Below, piece after piece: positions 17,203-50,400 of a DNA stretch of 64,000 nucleotides. Position 1 is the first letter of the stretch. The number at the start of each line of letters is the position of its first letter. The notes below the pieces were generated by a model, which was given only the letters and a program-made list of their open reading frames with translations, ran no database searches and was not told the DNA's origin. Location of the stretch: NCBI GenBank assembly GCA_019873645.1, contig JAIOAX010000021.1:1-64000 (forward strand), written 5' to 3'. The stretch comes from Chloroflexota bacterium. GTDB taxonomy: Bacteria; Chloroflexota; Anaerolineae; B4-G1; SLSP01. A program made the translations under genes and the position numbers.

Positions 17203-20200
17203 TTAGTGATTGCGCATCACCAGCGGCAGGTAGATCTTTGTCAGTTCCCTGACTTTTACTTCATCCAGATAGAACGCGCCATGGCTGTCCGCAGGCATCC
17301 AGAAGCCATAGCCCCACATCTCGGTAAGGGTCAGGCCATCGTTGGGCGCGCCTTCCGCTTGCTGGGCGCTGCGGACGAAGCGATTGAAGGGCAGCGTCAC
17401 CTGCTTCCAGCCGGTGAAGTTGTCGGTGAATGTCGTCTCGAAGCGTTCCGGCGCTGTCGGCGCCTGATAGACGCGCACGTAGTCCACGAGCATGTTCTGC
17501 GGGAAGACCGAGGTCTCGTCCGGGTAGCCCGGCCAGTAGCCGCCGACCGCGACGTTCATAATCAAGAAGAAGGGATGATCGAAGACCCACGGTGCGCCGG
17601 CGGGAATCATGCTCTTTGTCAGTGTGAAGTACTGCGTGTCGTCAAGGTACCAGCGGATTTCGTCCGGCTCCCACTCGATGGCGTAGACGTGGTAGTCGTT
17701 GGTGAGCGGTTCGGTATAGGTGTACCCGCCGCCGATGCCGCTGCCGCCGGAGTACCCCGGCCCGTGGACGGTGCCGTGAACGATGTACGGCTCCTTGCCG
17801 ATGTTCTCCATGATGTCAATCTCGCCGGAGTTCGGCCAACCGACTTCGCTGAAGTTGTTGCCGAGCGACCAGAACGCCGGCCAGATACCCTGTCCGTAGG
17901 GGATCTTCAGCCGCGCTTCGGCGCGCCCGTACATGAAGTCGAACTTGCCCTTCGTCAGCAAGCGGGCCGAAGTATATGCACACGTACCGGGTTCGTTGGC
18001 CGGGGTGTACGCACACTGATATTCCGTGCCGGTGTATTTGGTCGCCGTGATGACCAGGACGCCGTTGCCGTTCAGCGCGGAGTTCTCGCGCTTGTCCGTG
18101 TAATACTCATACTCGGCGTTGCCCCAACCGTGTCCGCCGATGTCGTAACCCCACTTTGTCTGATCGGGTTCTGCGCCGGCCACGCCATCGAACTCATCCT
18201 GCCAGGTGAGAATCCAGCCCTCCGGCCCGGGATCGGGCGCCTTGTTATCAAGGATTTGTACAGTCATCGGCGTGCCGGTGTTCATCCCGTAGAACCAGAA
18301 ACTGAAGCCATCTTTGGCCGACCAATCCTGGCTGTTGCCGAAACTGCGGATGAAGCCGCCGCCCGATTGCTGAATGGCCTGGACGGCCTGCGCAGGCAGG
18401 TGATAGGTGACGCTGAGCACGGTGTTGACCGGGTCTTGTTCGGGTAGGGCCAGCGGCGAAGTGCTGGGAATCTCCTGCGCAGTCACGGTGACGCCGCCGG
18501 TCGGTACCAGATCGGCAGGCACGCCGCGCTCGAAGTCGTCAATCATCCCCGGTATGGGCACATCCTGCACGAAGACCGGCGCGGTGGTACGCCAACCGAG
18601 GGCGGCGCCGGTAGGATTCGAGAGGGCGATGGAGAACTGCTCGTTGCCCTCAACTTTGTGATCGTTCAACAGAGCCATCTGGATGGTCTTGACGGTCTCA
18701 CCCGGCGCAAACGTGAGCGTCCCCGTGACCGACGCGGTGTAATCGTGTCCGGCTTTGGCGGTTCCATCGGTAATTGCGTATTCCACCGTTGCTGTTGCGG
18801 TGTCGGTGCGATTGAGCATCACACGCACATTGACCGTATTGCCCTCCGACGCCGCGTAAGCGTAGGTGGAGAACTGCACACGCAGCGGCATGTCGCCCGG
18901 CTCGCGCTGGCCGTAGATTTCAACCTGATCCAGATAGAGCGTCTGTTGCCCCGTGCCGGCGGGCAGTCCGAAGGCGTAGCCCGACACCTCCGTCAGATTG
19001 AGGCCGTCGTTGGGCGCGTTGCCGGGTTGCCAGTCGGTGCGACGCTTGAAGATGGAGAAGGGCAGGTGGAACTGTTTCCAGCCGGTATAATCATCGGTGA
19101 TGCGGGTGTAGTAACGTTCCGCCGAATCACCGGTGGAACCCAGCGCCTGGTTGTCGAAGATTTCCACCTGGATCTGCTTGCCGGTGTTGTTGCCGTAGAG
19201 CCAGAAGCGCAGGCCGTCATACGCGCTCCAGTCCTGGCTCACCCATTCATTTTCATCGGCGAAGGCGTGGGTGAAGCCACCCCACGCGCCGATGTTATAC
19301 GTGGCGGCAAGAACGGCGTTGTCGGTCGGGAAGCCTGGAACCTGCGTGAGTGGTGTGGTCGCCGTCAGGATCGGCATATCGGCGGCGTTGCTCCCCCAGC
19401 GCGTCAGGCCGATTTCGTTGCCGAAGGCGGTGCGTCCATAAGGCAGACCAGCCTCGAAGTTCTCAACGAGTTGGATATCCCGCGGGGTATCGTTGTCCAG
19501 GATGGTCAACAGCGCCGGATTGTTCTTCCCGCCGAGCATGATGGTGCTGTTGCCGGGATTGGAAAGCTCCAGGTACACCGTTTCGGGCAACTCATAGTCA
19601 TTATCGTCGAGGATGGGGACACTAAAGGAGGTTTCGGTTTGTCCAGGCTGGAAGACGAGGTTGCCGCTGACAGAGATATAATCCGCATCGGCAGTCGCCG
19701 TGCCATCGCCGTCCAGCGTCTTGTAGGTGACGGTGACCGGATAGGCAGCGGCCGGACTGATCGCTACCGTGATGGTAGCTGCATTGGCACCCTCGGAGAC
19801 GGTGTAGGTCGGACTGGTGAAGTCTACTGTAGGTAACGGTGCCTCCTCCAGTCCACCAAATAGAGTGACCTGGTCTATGTAAACCGTACCGTTGGTACCG
19901 CTAGGCAGTGCGAGCGCGTAGGCCCATACCTCGGTGAGAGTGAGGCCATCGTTAGGTGCGCCACTGGGCTGCCAGGCATCGCGGAAGAACGCCCCCCAGG
20001 GGATACTGATGTGTCGCCAGCCGGTGCTCGTGTCGGCAAACTCGTAGGCGAAACGTTCCGCCGTGTCACCTGGACCGCTCTTGTTGTCACTGAGGATGAC
20101 ACGGAACGTCGCTCCGCCACCCAGACCCTTGAACCAGAAGCTCAGACCATCGTAGGCGCTCCAGTCTTCGGGCGCGAGGTTGTTGCCGGTGCCCGCGCCC

Positions 20201-20994
20201 CAACCGACGCTGGTGTAGGCGATGGCAAGCACGTGATTGCCCGTTAGCCCCGGCACGGTATCATCGGCAGAGGTAGTCGTGGCAATGCTGGTGCCTGAAC
20301 CGTAGTCACCGTACTGAAACCACGTTGAGGGTAAACCGGCCTCAAAATCGTCTACAAGATGTAGTTTGAATAGCGCCACCTGATCTATGTAAACCGTACC
20401 GTTGGTACCGCTAGGCAGTGCGAGCGCGTAGGCCCATACCTCGGTGAGAGTGAGGCCATCGTTAGGTGCGCCACTGGGCTGCCAGGCATCGCGGAAGAAC
20501 GCCCCCCAGGGGATACTGATGTGTCGCCAGCCGGTGCTCGTGTCGGCAAACTCGTAGGCGAAACGTTCCGCCGTGTCACCTGGACCGCTCTTGTTGTCAC
20601 TGAGGATGACACGGAACGTCGCTCCGCCACCCAGACCCTTGAACCAGAAGCTCAGACCATCGTAGGCGCTCCAGTCTTCGGGCGCGAGGTTGTTGCCGGT
20701 GCCCGCGCCCCAACCGACGCTGGTGTAGGCGATGGCAAGCACGTGATTGCCCGTTAGCCCCGGCACGGTATCATCGGCAGAGGTAGTCGTGGCAATGCTG
20801 GTGCCTGAACCGTAGTCACCGTACTGAAACCACGTTGAGGGTAAACCGGCCTCAAAATCGTCTATGATGTGTACCCTGGTCGTCGGTGCATTAGAAGACA
20901 AATTGCTTTTCGCGGCGGCCGGTGCGCCCAACGACAGTGCCAGCAAGGAAACCAATGTGAGAACACGTAGCCAATAAAAAAATTTGGTATTCAT
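17203..20994 (-). CDS. Secreted multi-domain GH16 beta-glucanase, catalytic domain nested in a CBM-like domain
   Basis: ATG 20994 with GGAGGAG is the start; upstream codons look non-coding. A signal peptide covers the first about 28 residues. Two almost identical CBM11-like domains follow (about 38-210 and 210-380; start DDFEAGLPSTWFQYG). Next come a Calx-beta domain (VDFTSPTYTVSEG), a third CBM-like domain, a second Calx-beta domain, and a fourth CBM-like domain that is split. The GH16 domain begins at LTWQDEFDG and ends at VRVYQ. Its catalytic motif EIDIME has Glu1058 and Glu1063. The protein ends KIYLPLVMRNH. GH16 enzymes cleave beta-1,3/1,4-glucans, laminarin or agar-type galactans; substrate here is unproven. 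It is the likely extracellular first step for the locus. Confidence 0.92.
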   Translation of the reverse strand: MNTKFFYWLRVLTLVSLLALSLGAPAAAKSNLSSNAPTTRVHIIDDFEAGLPSTWFQYGDYGSGTSIATTTSADDTVPGLTGNHVLAIAYTSVGWGAGTGNNLAPEDWSAYDGLSFWFKGLGGGATFRVILSDNKSGPGDTAERFAYEFADTSTGWRHISIPWGAFFRDAWQPSGAPNDGLTLTEVWAYALALPSGTNGTVYIDQVALFKLHLVDDFEAGLPSTWFQYGDYGSGTSIATTTSADDTVPGLTGNHVLAIAYTSVGWGAGTGNNLAPEDWSAYDGLSFWFKGLGGGATFRVILSDNKSGPGDTAERFAYEFADTSTGWRHISIPWGAFFRDAWQPSGAPNDGLTLTEVWAYALALPSGTNGTVYIDQVTLFGGLEEAPLPTVDFTSPTYTVSEGANAATITVAISPAAAYPVTVTYKTLDGDGTATADADYISVSGNLVFQPGQTETSFSVPILDDNDYELPETVYLELSNPGNSTIMLGGKNNPALLTILDNDTPRDIQLVENFEAGLPYGRTAFGNEIGLTRWGSNAADMPILTATTPLTQVPGFPTDNAVLAATYNIGAWGGFTHAFADENEWVSQDWSAYDGLRFWLYGNNTGKQIQVEIFDNQALGSTGDSAERYYTRITDDYTGWKQFHLPFSIFKRRTDWQPGNAPNDGLNLTEVSGYAFGLPAGTGQQTLYLDQVEIYGQREPGDMPLRVQFSTYAYAASEGNTVNVRVMLNRTDTATATVEYAITDGTAKAGHDYTASVTGTLTFAPGETVKTIQMALLNDHKVEGNEQFSIALSNPTGAALGWRTTAPVFVQDVPIPGMIDDFERGVPADLVPTGGVTVTAQEIPSTSPLALPEQDPVNTVLSVTYHLPAQAVQAIQQSGGGFIRSFGNSQDWSAKDGFSFWFYGMNTGTPMTVQILDNKAPDPGPEGWILTWQDEFDGVAGAEPDQTKWGYDIGGHGWGNAEYEYYTDKRENSALNGNGVLVITATKYTGTEYQCAYTPANEPGTCAYTSARLLTKGKFDFMYGRAEARLKIPYGQGIWPAFWSLGNNFSEVGWPNSGEIDIMENIGKEPYIVHGTVHGPGYSGGSGIGGGYTYTEPLTNDYHVYAIEWEPDEIRWYLDDTQYFTLTKSMIPAGAPWVFDHPFFLIMNVAVGGYWPGYPDETSVFPQNMLVDYVRVYQAPTAPERFETTFTDNFTGWKQVTLPFNRFVRSAQQAEGAPNDGLTLTEMWGYGFWMPADSHGAFYLDEVKVRELTKIYLPLVMRNH
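19873..20864. repeat. Two identical 482-bp direct repeats (510-bp period) in the GH16 gene
   Basis: Bases 19873-20354 and 20383-20864 appear identical over 482 bp, offset by 510. They encode two copies of the CBM11-like domain. No silent difference was seen, which implies a very recent duplication or gene conversion. Confidence 0.93.
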
Positions 20995-21574
20995 TTGACT
21001 CCTCCATTCAAAAACTGATTTAATTGAGTAAGATAGGGTAATCAATATGCGATATGGTATATGCTGCACCTCCTCAAGGGAATAGTGTTTGAATTTAGTT
21101 CATTAGGGATATTTGTGAGTCTACTGAAAAAACTAAAGATCTCAGCGCAGAGTCGCAGAGGGCGCAAAGATTTTTATGTAGGATTCAATAAAATTAAGTC
21201 TTTCGCGTTTCATTACTAATTTTATTGATATAAACTTGAATTTTTCTCGGCGTTCTTTGCGTCTCTGCGGTGAATTAGACTTTTTTCAGGAGAGTCATTT
21301 GTAGCTCGACAATGTTAGATGTGCTCTTTCACCACAGAGTGCACTGAGATCACTGAGTTTTCCTGTGTTTTCTCTGCGTCCTCAGTGGCCTCTGCGGTGA
21401 ATTTAACATTGTCGAGGTAGTAATACACATAATATCGCAGATGCTGAATAGTCCCCCAATCTTATCGGCCGCAAGTCAAAAATCCGTTAAAATCCGTTCA
21501 ATCCGTTGACACCTCCCACAGCCGCAGGTCAAAAATCCGTTAAGACACTCCCACGGCTACAGGTCAAAAATCCG
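20995..21574. repeat. Repeat-rich intergenic region upstream of GH16
   Basis: No gene was seen. Bases 21130-21420 carry several variants of a CTCTGCGxCTCTGCGGTGAA-type repeat, in both orientations. Bases 21465-21600 carry three spaced copies of a CAGGTCAAAAATCCGTTAA unit followed by AATCCGTTNAATCCGTTGAC decamers. The last copy runs into the LacI gene. The GH16 promoter must lie here but I cannot point to it. Confidence 0.7.
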
Positions 21575-47412: not shown

Positions 47413-50400
47413 ACGCCATTGTACGATGACCAGCGGCAAATAAACGCGGCGCCATCCTGCCAGATGGCGAATCGTGACCACCCGACCGTTGCCGGTATCC
47501 GCGACGACGATGTCGCCATCCGCCGCCACCGCCACGCCGTGCGGGGCGTTGAAGGGGCCGGTGTAGCCATCGTTGAGCGCAGTGTACTCGGCGCGGAAGC
47601 TGCCCGCGGCATCCAGCACGACGATGCGATTGTTGCCCGTGTCGGCGATGTAGAGATTGTCATCAGCATCCACCGCGACGCCGGTGGGGCTGCTGAAGCT
47701 GGCGGTGATGACGGCGGGCTGGCTGAACGTCTGCCCGTCGAAATTCAGGACAACCAGGCGGTCATTGCCCTGATCCACGACGATAACCCGGCCACTTTTA
47801 TCCACCGCCACATCCTGCGGCGTATTGAACTGCCCTAACAGCGTGCCGGGTACATCGCCGTAGGCCGACAAGAAGTTCCCCAGAAGATCAAAAGCCTGGA
47901 TGCGATGCGTAGCACTGTCAGCGACGAGGATGCGCGTGCAGGCGTCGCTGTTCCCCAGGCGCGGAACGTCGCTGATGCGCAGTTCATCAATGGTTGCATC
48001 CACGGCCAGGCTACCATCCGGATTCGACCCGATGTAAAAGTCGGGCGCTACGGGCCGGGCTGTTCCCTCACACTCGCTTTGGGCGACCCGCCGGCCATCC
48101 ACGTACAGGCTGATGACGTTCTCCGCCCAGGTGAAGGCAAGGTGATGCCATTCTCCGGCCCGCCAGTGTGCCACGTTGGTCGGCGCGCCGCAACTGCCGT
48201 CTTCGTAGAAATAATCGAAGACCAGATTGCTGATCCCGTCTTTGCGCAGGTGCAGGAAATTTCCCCAATAGCCCCACCAGAAGAGCGTGTGGTTACCGCC
48301 GTCGTCGCCGTCCCAATCGGGGCGGAGCCAGAATTCGACCGCGCCAAACGTGTGGGTCAGGTTGCCGGTGACGGGGTAGCTCAGGATGTTGGTGTCTGTG
48401 ATCAGCACGCCCTGTCCATGGCGGCCTGTGGTGAACGTGACGCCACTCGCCGTCCCGATTTCGCCTTCGGCCCCGCTGAGGTCACCATCGAAGTGCAGCA
48501 GCAGGGACGTGTGCGTGTTCACTTCGTAGGGGCCGCCATAAGTGCAGGGCGGCCCCCACGTTGCCACGCCCGACGGCGCGCTGAATTGCCCCGGCGCTGT
48601 CCCTTCCTCGCCAAATGCCCACAGCGGCTGCATCGTCGCATCGTAAATACGCACCGCGCGGCGGATATCTCCGGGGAACAATCCAAAGCCGCTGACCACC
48701 AGCGTCCCGGCGGCGTCGTAGGTCAAGTCGGCGGCGCCGCCCATATCGTAATGGACGTTGACGAGCCGGTGGGTATACCGTCCATCCGGTTGCTGGCGCA
48801 GCAAAGGATACAAGTTCCAGTTGTTGAGCACCGTCCGGCTCAAGTCGGGGGCAATCACGACGGTTCTGGGGTTGAGCGTGGGAGCGTAGGCCGGCGCGCT
48901 AAACGCGCTCTCGTGTCCTGCGCCGTCTACCGCGGTGACGGCGTAAACCCGATGTTCCCCGTCGCCCCACCCGCCGCCCCATTCCGCGAAGGTCGTCCCG
49001 GTGAGCCAATTGGCAGCGACACGGTAGCGATAATCCGGCGGCGTCGCCCGGTACACCCGGTAGCCGGCCGCGTCGGGGACAGGATACCACTCTAACGTTG
49101 CCAGCGTCTCTTCGATGCGCGCTTGCCTCAGGCGCGGCGCAACCGGCGCATTAGCCGGAGGAACGTGTGAGGAAATGGTGAACGTGTGGCTAAGCACATC
49201 GCCCATCCAGTAAGCCAGATTGAATTGGGTGATGTCGAGCCAGTGGAATTCCACATGCTCCTGGCGGGCCAGCCGAATCAGGAGCAAGCCCTGATTCCCA
49301 ACAATATCCACCACACCGAAAGGATTGTCGTGCAGCACGTGCCCGTTCTGCGTCACCGTACCGCCGTTGGCGGAGCGATTGGGCAGTGGGAACACGCCGT
49401 TGGCATCCGTCGTGCCGCTCATTTCCGGCGTGTTGTCCACGCCCATCTGACCGGTCCAATCCCAGGGGCCGGTGCGCTGGTAGACCGTCACCTGGACGTT
49501 AGCCGCCGGATTGCCCTCGTTGTCGAGAATGCGCAGGTCGTTCTGCAAGGGGATGTCGAACAGGTAGGCGCCGTAGTACCCGTTGCGATATCCGGCAAAG
49601 GTGGAGGCGCCTCCGGCGGAATGGCTGGAATAGAGGTGCGGGTCGTTGTGGGGCGTGGTGTCGCCGCCGAACATCAAATCTCCATTGCTCCAACCAAAGC
49701 TAAAGTTCGCGGGCATCCCGTCGTTGTCGGTCACAAAGACGTTGGCGGCGTAGACGCCGATAGCATACAGGTCAATCAGCGAGACCTGGTGGCTCAACTC
49801 GTGCACCAGGCCCCAGTCAATGTCGGTCGCCGGATCGTAGTAGCCGCCCTCGTGACGGACGTCGTCCCGGATGAACCAACCGCCGTCGTGTTCGCCGTCC
49901 GGCGGCGGTGCTTCGGAGGCGATGCCAATCGTGTTGATGCGCACACGCAGCGTCGCGCCCTGCGGCGTGACCGGGTAAATGGAGTTGGCGAACGCCGTGT
50001 TCATCGCCGCAATCTGCTTCTGCAGCCAGTCCTCCGCCGAGAAGGGATACTTGGGGTCAACCGGTGTATTGTACGCGGCATACATCTCCGGCGTGACGAA
50101 AATGTTGAAGCTCATCGCGTTGGTGCGATCTTCAAGGCTGTTGTTGCTCTCGTAGGCCTCGGCGATAAGATTGGCGGGATCGGCGGTGAAGCGCACGGTG
50201 TGCTCGCCCAACGCGCGCTGCCCGTCAGAGGAGAGCCCGTGCGCCCAGGGCCAGGCGTAGGTTGCTGTAATTTCCGCCGCCGGAGCCAGTGCGGGCAGTG
50301 TGCCGCTGGCGACTTCCGCCCCGTCAATGTGCCAGGCGTAGTCGAAGGCCAGGCTGGCGACCGCGCCCTTGTTGACGATGTGCGCCGTGAAGGTGACGAT

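Follow-up and report, generated by a model that had tools for sequence, protein, structure and literature searches.

Interrupted propellers, in which a further domain is inserted into the fold, are an established type, with the sialidase of V. cholerae and its lectin-like insert given as the example in PMC2716378, and PMC4747158 has a domain of RgNanH protruding from between two blades. The kind of arrangement reported here is therefore already known, because the V. cholerae sialidase has a lectin-like domain in its propeller.

The propeller concerned here has the host fold of the NHL propellers of TRIM71, TRIM2/3, Thin, PknD and the designed Pizza proteins (Z 29-35, ~2 Å); here blade 3 is split by 208 residues. 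The sequence family of its guest is that of LamG/Laminin_G_3 (PF13385), 4qvs and the pappalysins; here the domain is nested, not terminal or in tandem. Among the 50 structure matches listed, a LamG in a blade is described for none.

Here, we describe a protein with a LamG-like domain inside an NHL propeller, encoded in a 64,000-nt stretch of Chloroflexota DNA (the window). It is like the V. cholerae sialidase (a type 2 interrupted propeller) in that a guest interrupts the blades and one propeller still closes; unlike the Asp-box propellers of that sialidase and of RgNanH, the host is an NHL propeller and the insert lies within blade 3, at the turn between strands a and b. The protein resembles the type 2 sialidases in layout and is not a member of them; no sialidase catalytic family is found among its Pfam matches up to E 1, and TS_C – the lectin-like C-terminal domain of trans-sialidase – matches the LamG below its cut-off. 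In searches of the open-access literature at the level of titles and abstracts, no publication describing an NHL blade with a LamG inside it was found and, as far as searches of this depth show, the NHL host, the in-blade position, the family-wide conservation and the exchange of the guest are new. The reading that we favour, and regard as reasonably probable, is of a secreted Chloroflexota protein that carries a LamG on the blade 3 a-b turn, in which the guest has been exchanged in place and would act as a binding head.

The host gene and its parts

The host protein consists, in order, of a CARDB domain, a region with an HELSHQ motif, an Fn3-like domain (backed by 3mpc and other solved structures) and the NHL propeller with its nested LamG (Table 1). 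Pfam places CARDB at residues 96-190, NHL in four stretches (86.4 bits; cut-off 20) and Laminin_G_3 at 780-913 (58.3 bits; cut-off 27.6), the last being matched by all five sequences of A1 at E ≤ 0.001. By eye, a hydrophobic N-terminal stretch together with a C-terminal YLPLV ending suggests that the protein is secreted. A similar (Y/F)LPLV motif forms the C-terminal end of several secreted proteins of the window (those starting at 17203, 23102 and 47410), and is perhaps a sorting or anchoring tail.

Table 1. Window coordinates of the host gene and of the features within it
Feature	Residues	Window positions	Strand	Basis
Host gene, ATG start	1096 aa	47410..50700	(-)	ORF and Pfam
HExxHxxxxxD motif HELSHQVSLID, putative zinc site	300-310	49771..49803	(-)	Pattern match
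Propeller blades 1 and 2, degenerate NHL blades	611-703	48592..48870	(-)	Model strands
Blade 3, first part (strand a), GQFSAPSGVAT	704-714	48559..48591	(-)	Half-blade matrix and model
Insert: necks and LamG-like domain	715-922	47935..48558	(-)	Pfam, model, homologues and half-blade matrix
Cys719, N-neck	719	48544..48546	(-)	Homologue alignment
LamG core with a history unlike the host's, common to L028 and L065	~800-900	48001..48303	(-)	Trees, AU and site counts
Cys921, C-neck	921	47938..47940	(-)	Homologue alignment
Blade 3, second part (strands b, c), RILVADSATHRIQAF	923-937	47890..47934	(-)	Half-blade matrix and model
Blades 4-6	~956-1077	47470..47835	(-)	Model and half-blade matrix

A LamG-like domain splits blade 3 of the propeller

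Blade 3 of the propeller is split by a LamG-like domain at its a-b turn. A position matrix for half-blades, which draws on 55 blades from 18 loci encoding other NHL proteins and was slid along the host protein, picked out exactly four prominent N-halves (at residues 704, 956, 1000 and 1048) and exactly four prominent C-halves (at 923, 971, 1015 and 1063), with the matrix favouring canonical blades because its training blades were chosen by a pattern requiring some conserved positions. Three of the blades have their halves 15 residues apart and the interrupted one (704/923) has them 219 apart; when the protein was shuffled 2000 times, the N-half score of the latter was reached once and its C-half score not at all. 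The 208 residues of the insert occupy the place of a four-residue turn between strands a and b, a net insertion of 204. After excision of the LamG in silico, the NHL score in a Pfam rescan rose only to 95.2 bits (87.2 before), below the 99.3 bits of the C-terminal piece by itself; the comparison does not discriminate, since any gain is swamped by the length correction. Blade 3 with its two parts joined directly scored 19.7 bits, against the cut-off of 20, with the match on its second half only.

A model of residues 611-1096, obtained with AlphaFold2 after adding four orthologues, has a mean pLDDT of 69, with most of the propeller at 70-94, the LamG at ~50-70 and the N-neck at ~30. In it, strand a of blade 3 (709-715) precedes the LamG, and strands b, c and d (923-928, 933-938 and 943-947) follow it. 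The best structural match by VIA-align, between model residues 1 to 467 and residues 1094-1353 of 6xg7, covers 250 aligned residues at 2.0 Å (Z 35.2), and the NHL propellers of TRIM3, TRIM2 and TRIM71 come next. One closed six-bladed NHL propeller thus forms across the LamG insert in the model. Blade 6 has just three strands there, its closing strand being unresolved, and the strands of the LamG are present at the lower confidence given above, with fold searches filled by propellers.

The original prediction had placed a LamG-like domain within a single NHL blade and proposed structure prediction as a check. Nesting is confirmed by the spacing of the blade halves, by the model and by the homologues described below, and the predicted boundaries – GQFSAPSGVAT before the insert and RILVADSATHRIQAF after it – hold. 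In the model one propeller of six blades closes over the insertion, and blade 3 is whole on neither side of the LamG, so that the outcome named as telling against nesting is not seen.

At the N-terminal neck of the insert, the DNA (window positions 48525-48560) contains a G+C-rich inverted repeat (13 nt, loop of 10 nt), which is likely to be a chance occurrence in G+C-rich coding DNA.

The insert is conserved in position among homologues

One scan of the genome contigs gave four homologous loci. With the entire protein as query and E 1e-30 as cut-off, a search of the whole phylum returned only the protein's own genome among 400, but was too strict, because of this cut-off and because two candidates were scored per genome; searches with an N-terminal profile found relatives in three of the 48 genomes of the order (E 1e-10) and in 16 of the 396 genomes of the class (E 1e-20). 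All 16 distinct homologues that can be read through the insert, the window protein included, have it at the same position. They come mostly from separate assemblies, and identity to the window protein in the N-terminal host part runs from 73% to 36%. This count leaves out L057, whose contig stops ahead of the insert; L058, which has a broken frame despite which blade 3 strand a and the start of the LamG are readable; L066 and L069, whose frames of 597 and 616 aa hold the N-terminal part only; and L009, L050, L053, L067 and L068, which repeat counted genes. A family member with the propeller and an empty site was not seen among the homologues found, and viral contigs yielded no relative. The split-blade NHL/LamG arrangement is old and fixed in its family.

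Each neck of the window protein carries one cysteine (Cys719 and Cys921). Both are present in six of the 16 homologues and both are absent from the other ten, with no homologue having a single one, a pattern that fits a putative disulfide staple at the base of the insert. Two members of the nested family, L028 and L030, occur in one assembly (JAPLHB01), and recombination between such copies is therefore possible.

The LamG core and the host have different histories

Distances in the N-terminal host part and in the LamG are correlated over the 120 pairs of the 16 homologues (r 0.82), so host and LamG have mostly travelled together and exchange is the exception. The exception concerns L065, which is 36% identical to the window protein in the N-terminal host part and 52% identical over the insert, with identity at 72-77% in residues 795-869 and at 21-26% directly after the insert. 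The host tree groups the window protein with L028 and L029 (97/98) and leaves L065 outside a clade of seven (100/99), whereas the LamG tree groups the window protein with L028 and L065 (100/98). The swap clades and the limits of the block were chosen with the trees and identities already in view; on that footing, approximately unbiased (AU) tests on the host data reject the LamG grouping (p 9e-44), and those on the LamG data reject the host grouping (p 4e-11). Sites at which the window protein agrees with L065 against L029 make up 40 of 46 inside residues 780-900 and 56 of 311 outside (Fisher p 3e-20, with sites treated as independent and limits picked after looking). An extra cysteine pair within the LamG is confined to the window protein, L028 and L065.

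The history of the LamG core thus differs from that of the host. The exchanged block corresponds to this core, whereas the N-terminal LamG strand and the necks share the history of the host; the simplest reading of these sequences is an in-place replacement of the core in the lineage of the window protein and L028, with necks and propeller kept.

Two giant proteins of genome G460 (L098 and L114) carry an N-terminal, un-nested LamG that is 45-48% identical to that of the window protein and shares with it a similar GPY..DD.TLLLLHFDG start; unlike the window's LamG, these follow a signal-peptide-like start and by eye lie in no other domain. In a tree with added LamG domains, those of L098, L114 and L101 are placed among the nested ones, and a single clade of nested LamG is rejected (AU p 0.013). 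The simplest account would be that LamG domains of the window's type can change place, being nested in some proteins and free in others.

Function of the host protein and of the LamG head

The function of the host protein is much less certain than its anatomy. The HExxHxxxxxD pattern is found in 15 of the 16 homologues (it was not found in L054), and the G of HExxHxxGxxD/H is S in the window protein, A in L028 and G in the other 13 that bear the motif. This motif, in itself weak evidence, suggests a zinc peptidase, and the candidate zincin class is one that we take to be M6/metzincin-like. In pappalysin, LamG precedes a metzincin. No peptidase family matches the host protein in Pfam up to E 1. 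The model of the N-terminal part is poor (pLDDT 51), with a fold search that returned mainly chains of Fn3 and glycosidases, and the N-terminal profile searched against solved structures gave matches to the CARDB region, Fn3 and, weakly, transthyretin, with no peptidase among them. The LamG profile has weak matches of its own among solved structures, namely the S-layer protein 4qvs (E 1.3e-6), pappalysin-2 (E 9e-5) and laminin. The gene surroundings of four orthologues, read by eye, gave no functional clue. By its likeness to the lectin domains of sialidases, the LamG on the propeller turn is most likely a binding head.

These observations suggest how the protein may be built and may work. A complete LamG-like domain stands on two short necks at the blade 3 a-b turn; jelly rolls of the LamG type have adjacent ends and should therefore be able to stand on a hairpin turn with the host undisturbed. 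In one clade a disulfide from neck to neck would pin the base of the LamG. The exposed head may bind a glycan or a protein and so direct the N-terminal part, which is probably proteolytic, to its target. Replacement of the LamG core, with necks and propeller staying as they are, would then change that target. Less probable than the reading given at the outset, yet possible, is that in this conserved family of secreted and probably proteolytic proteins the blade 3 a-b turn is a long-lived socket for a LamG head that is exchanged in place by recombination, the same type of LamG also passing from nested to free sites, or back, in other proteins. On the socket reading the head would set the target, with the propeller and catalytic part unchanged.

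The protein offers a clean natural in-blade insertion, with a defined point, at least 16 members, paired neck cysteines and an apparent guest swap. It makes the tolerance of a propeller turn for guests, and the role of insertion sites as exchange sockets, open to test, and it provides a natural insertion point for the engineering of NHL or Pizza propellers.

Alternative explanations

The strongest competitor is plain inheritance, in which a single ancestral LamG entered and then drifted, and the grouping with L065 reflects uneven rates or lost paralogues. It accounts for the presence of the insert in all 16 homologues and for the overall correlation of host and LamG distances, and the occurrence of L028 and L030 in one assembly makes paralogy possible. 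However, the conflict between host and LamG is sharp, limited to about residues 800-900 and strong both ways, and uneven rates do not yield a block of 76% identity beside one of 25%; we therefore consider plain inheritance rather unlikely, though it deserves some weight.

The anatomy itself could be read otherwise, with two distinct domains in succession and the LamG lying between two propeller pieces that are each a partial or a separate propeller. The low model confidence for the LamG and the neck, and a blade 6 with three strands only, would leave room for this, but 250 residues from both sides superpose at 2.0 Å on one continuous NHL propeller, and elsewhere each N-half has its own C-half at a fixed 15-residue spacing, which makes separate pieces very improbable. 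A chimeric assembly, or a recent mobile insertion into an intact propeller, might be suspected in a window from a 73-contig draft genome; the same junction in 16 distinct proteins already refutes it, G+C is even across the insert and the repeats near the insert are short and chance-like, leaving this explanation a practically negligible chance. No tRNA was found in the 64,000-nt window. In-place exchange of a guest nested in blade 3 is the reading that we retain.

Other nested architectures

The original prediction also pointed to a companion case, the split CBM of a GH16 protein, and this is borne out: in the window protein encoded at 17203-21069 (-), the GH16 domain (~952-1202) splits the last CBM11. 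Pfam finds CBM11 in five stretches together with GH16, and of the 20 best loci examined (among 60 places listed), 19 have both CBM11 flanks. Here too the guest is a ConA-like domain, this time within a beta-sandwich module, and the families of host and guest are not those of the NHL/LamG protein. CBM11 copies 1 and 2 of this protein are almost identical, as after a recent tandem duplication.

In a third nested case in the same genome, on contig 36, a LamG separates the two conserved halves of a GHL15 protein. The two halves lie on opposite sides of the LamG in seven of the eight genomes with a match to this host, and the eighth (G549) has the first half and then the start of a LamG in a short frame. 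The joined flanks match PKD_5 at E 0.21 only, and the description of this host region as Ig-like is by eye. From the first two cases it had been proposed that nesting may be a habit of this genome. There are indeed three cases here, but genome is the wrong level, as all are shared across the class; because each is common to distant genomes, the three architectures are inherited and belong to the class.

In the GHL15-type secreted family (L105, L106, L109, L110 and L045-L047), a LamG splits the N-terminal host region in every copy read. The contig 36 member, L045 (617-4534 (-)), is a 1307-aa frame that joins half of a PlsY-like acyltransferase (PF02660) to the secreted LamG, GHL15 and CBM4_9 protein, and its homologues L046 and L047 have a signal-peptide-like start in place of the PlsY-like half; the join in L045 is either a gene fusion or an assembly join. 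Contig 1 of the same genome has a 7211-aa frame (L048/L070) with nine of the genome's 13 LamG matches, some of which seem, by eye, to lie inside Ig-like domains.
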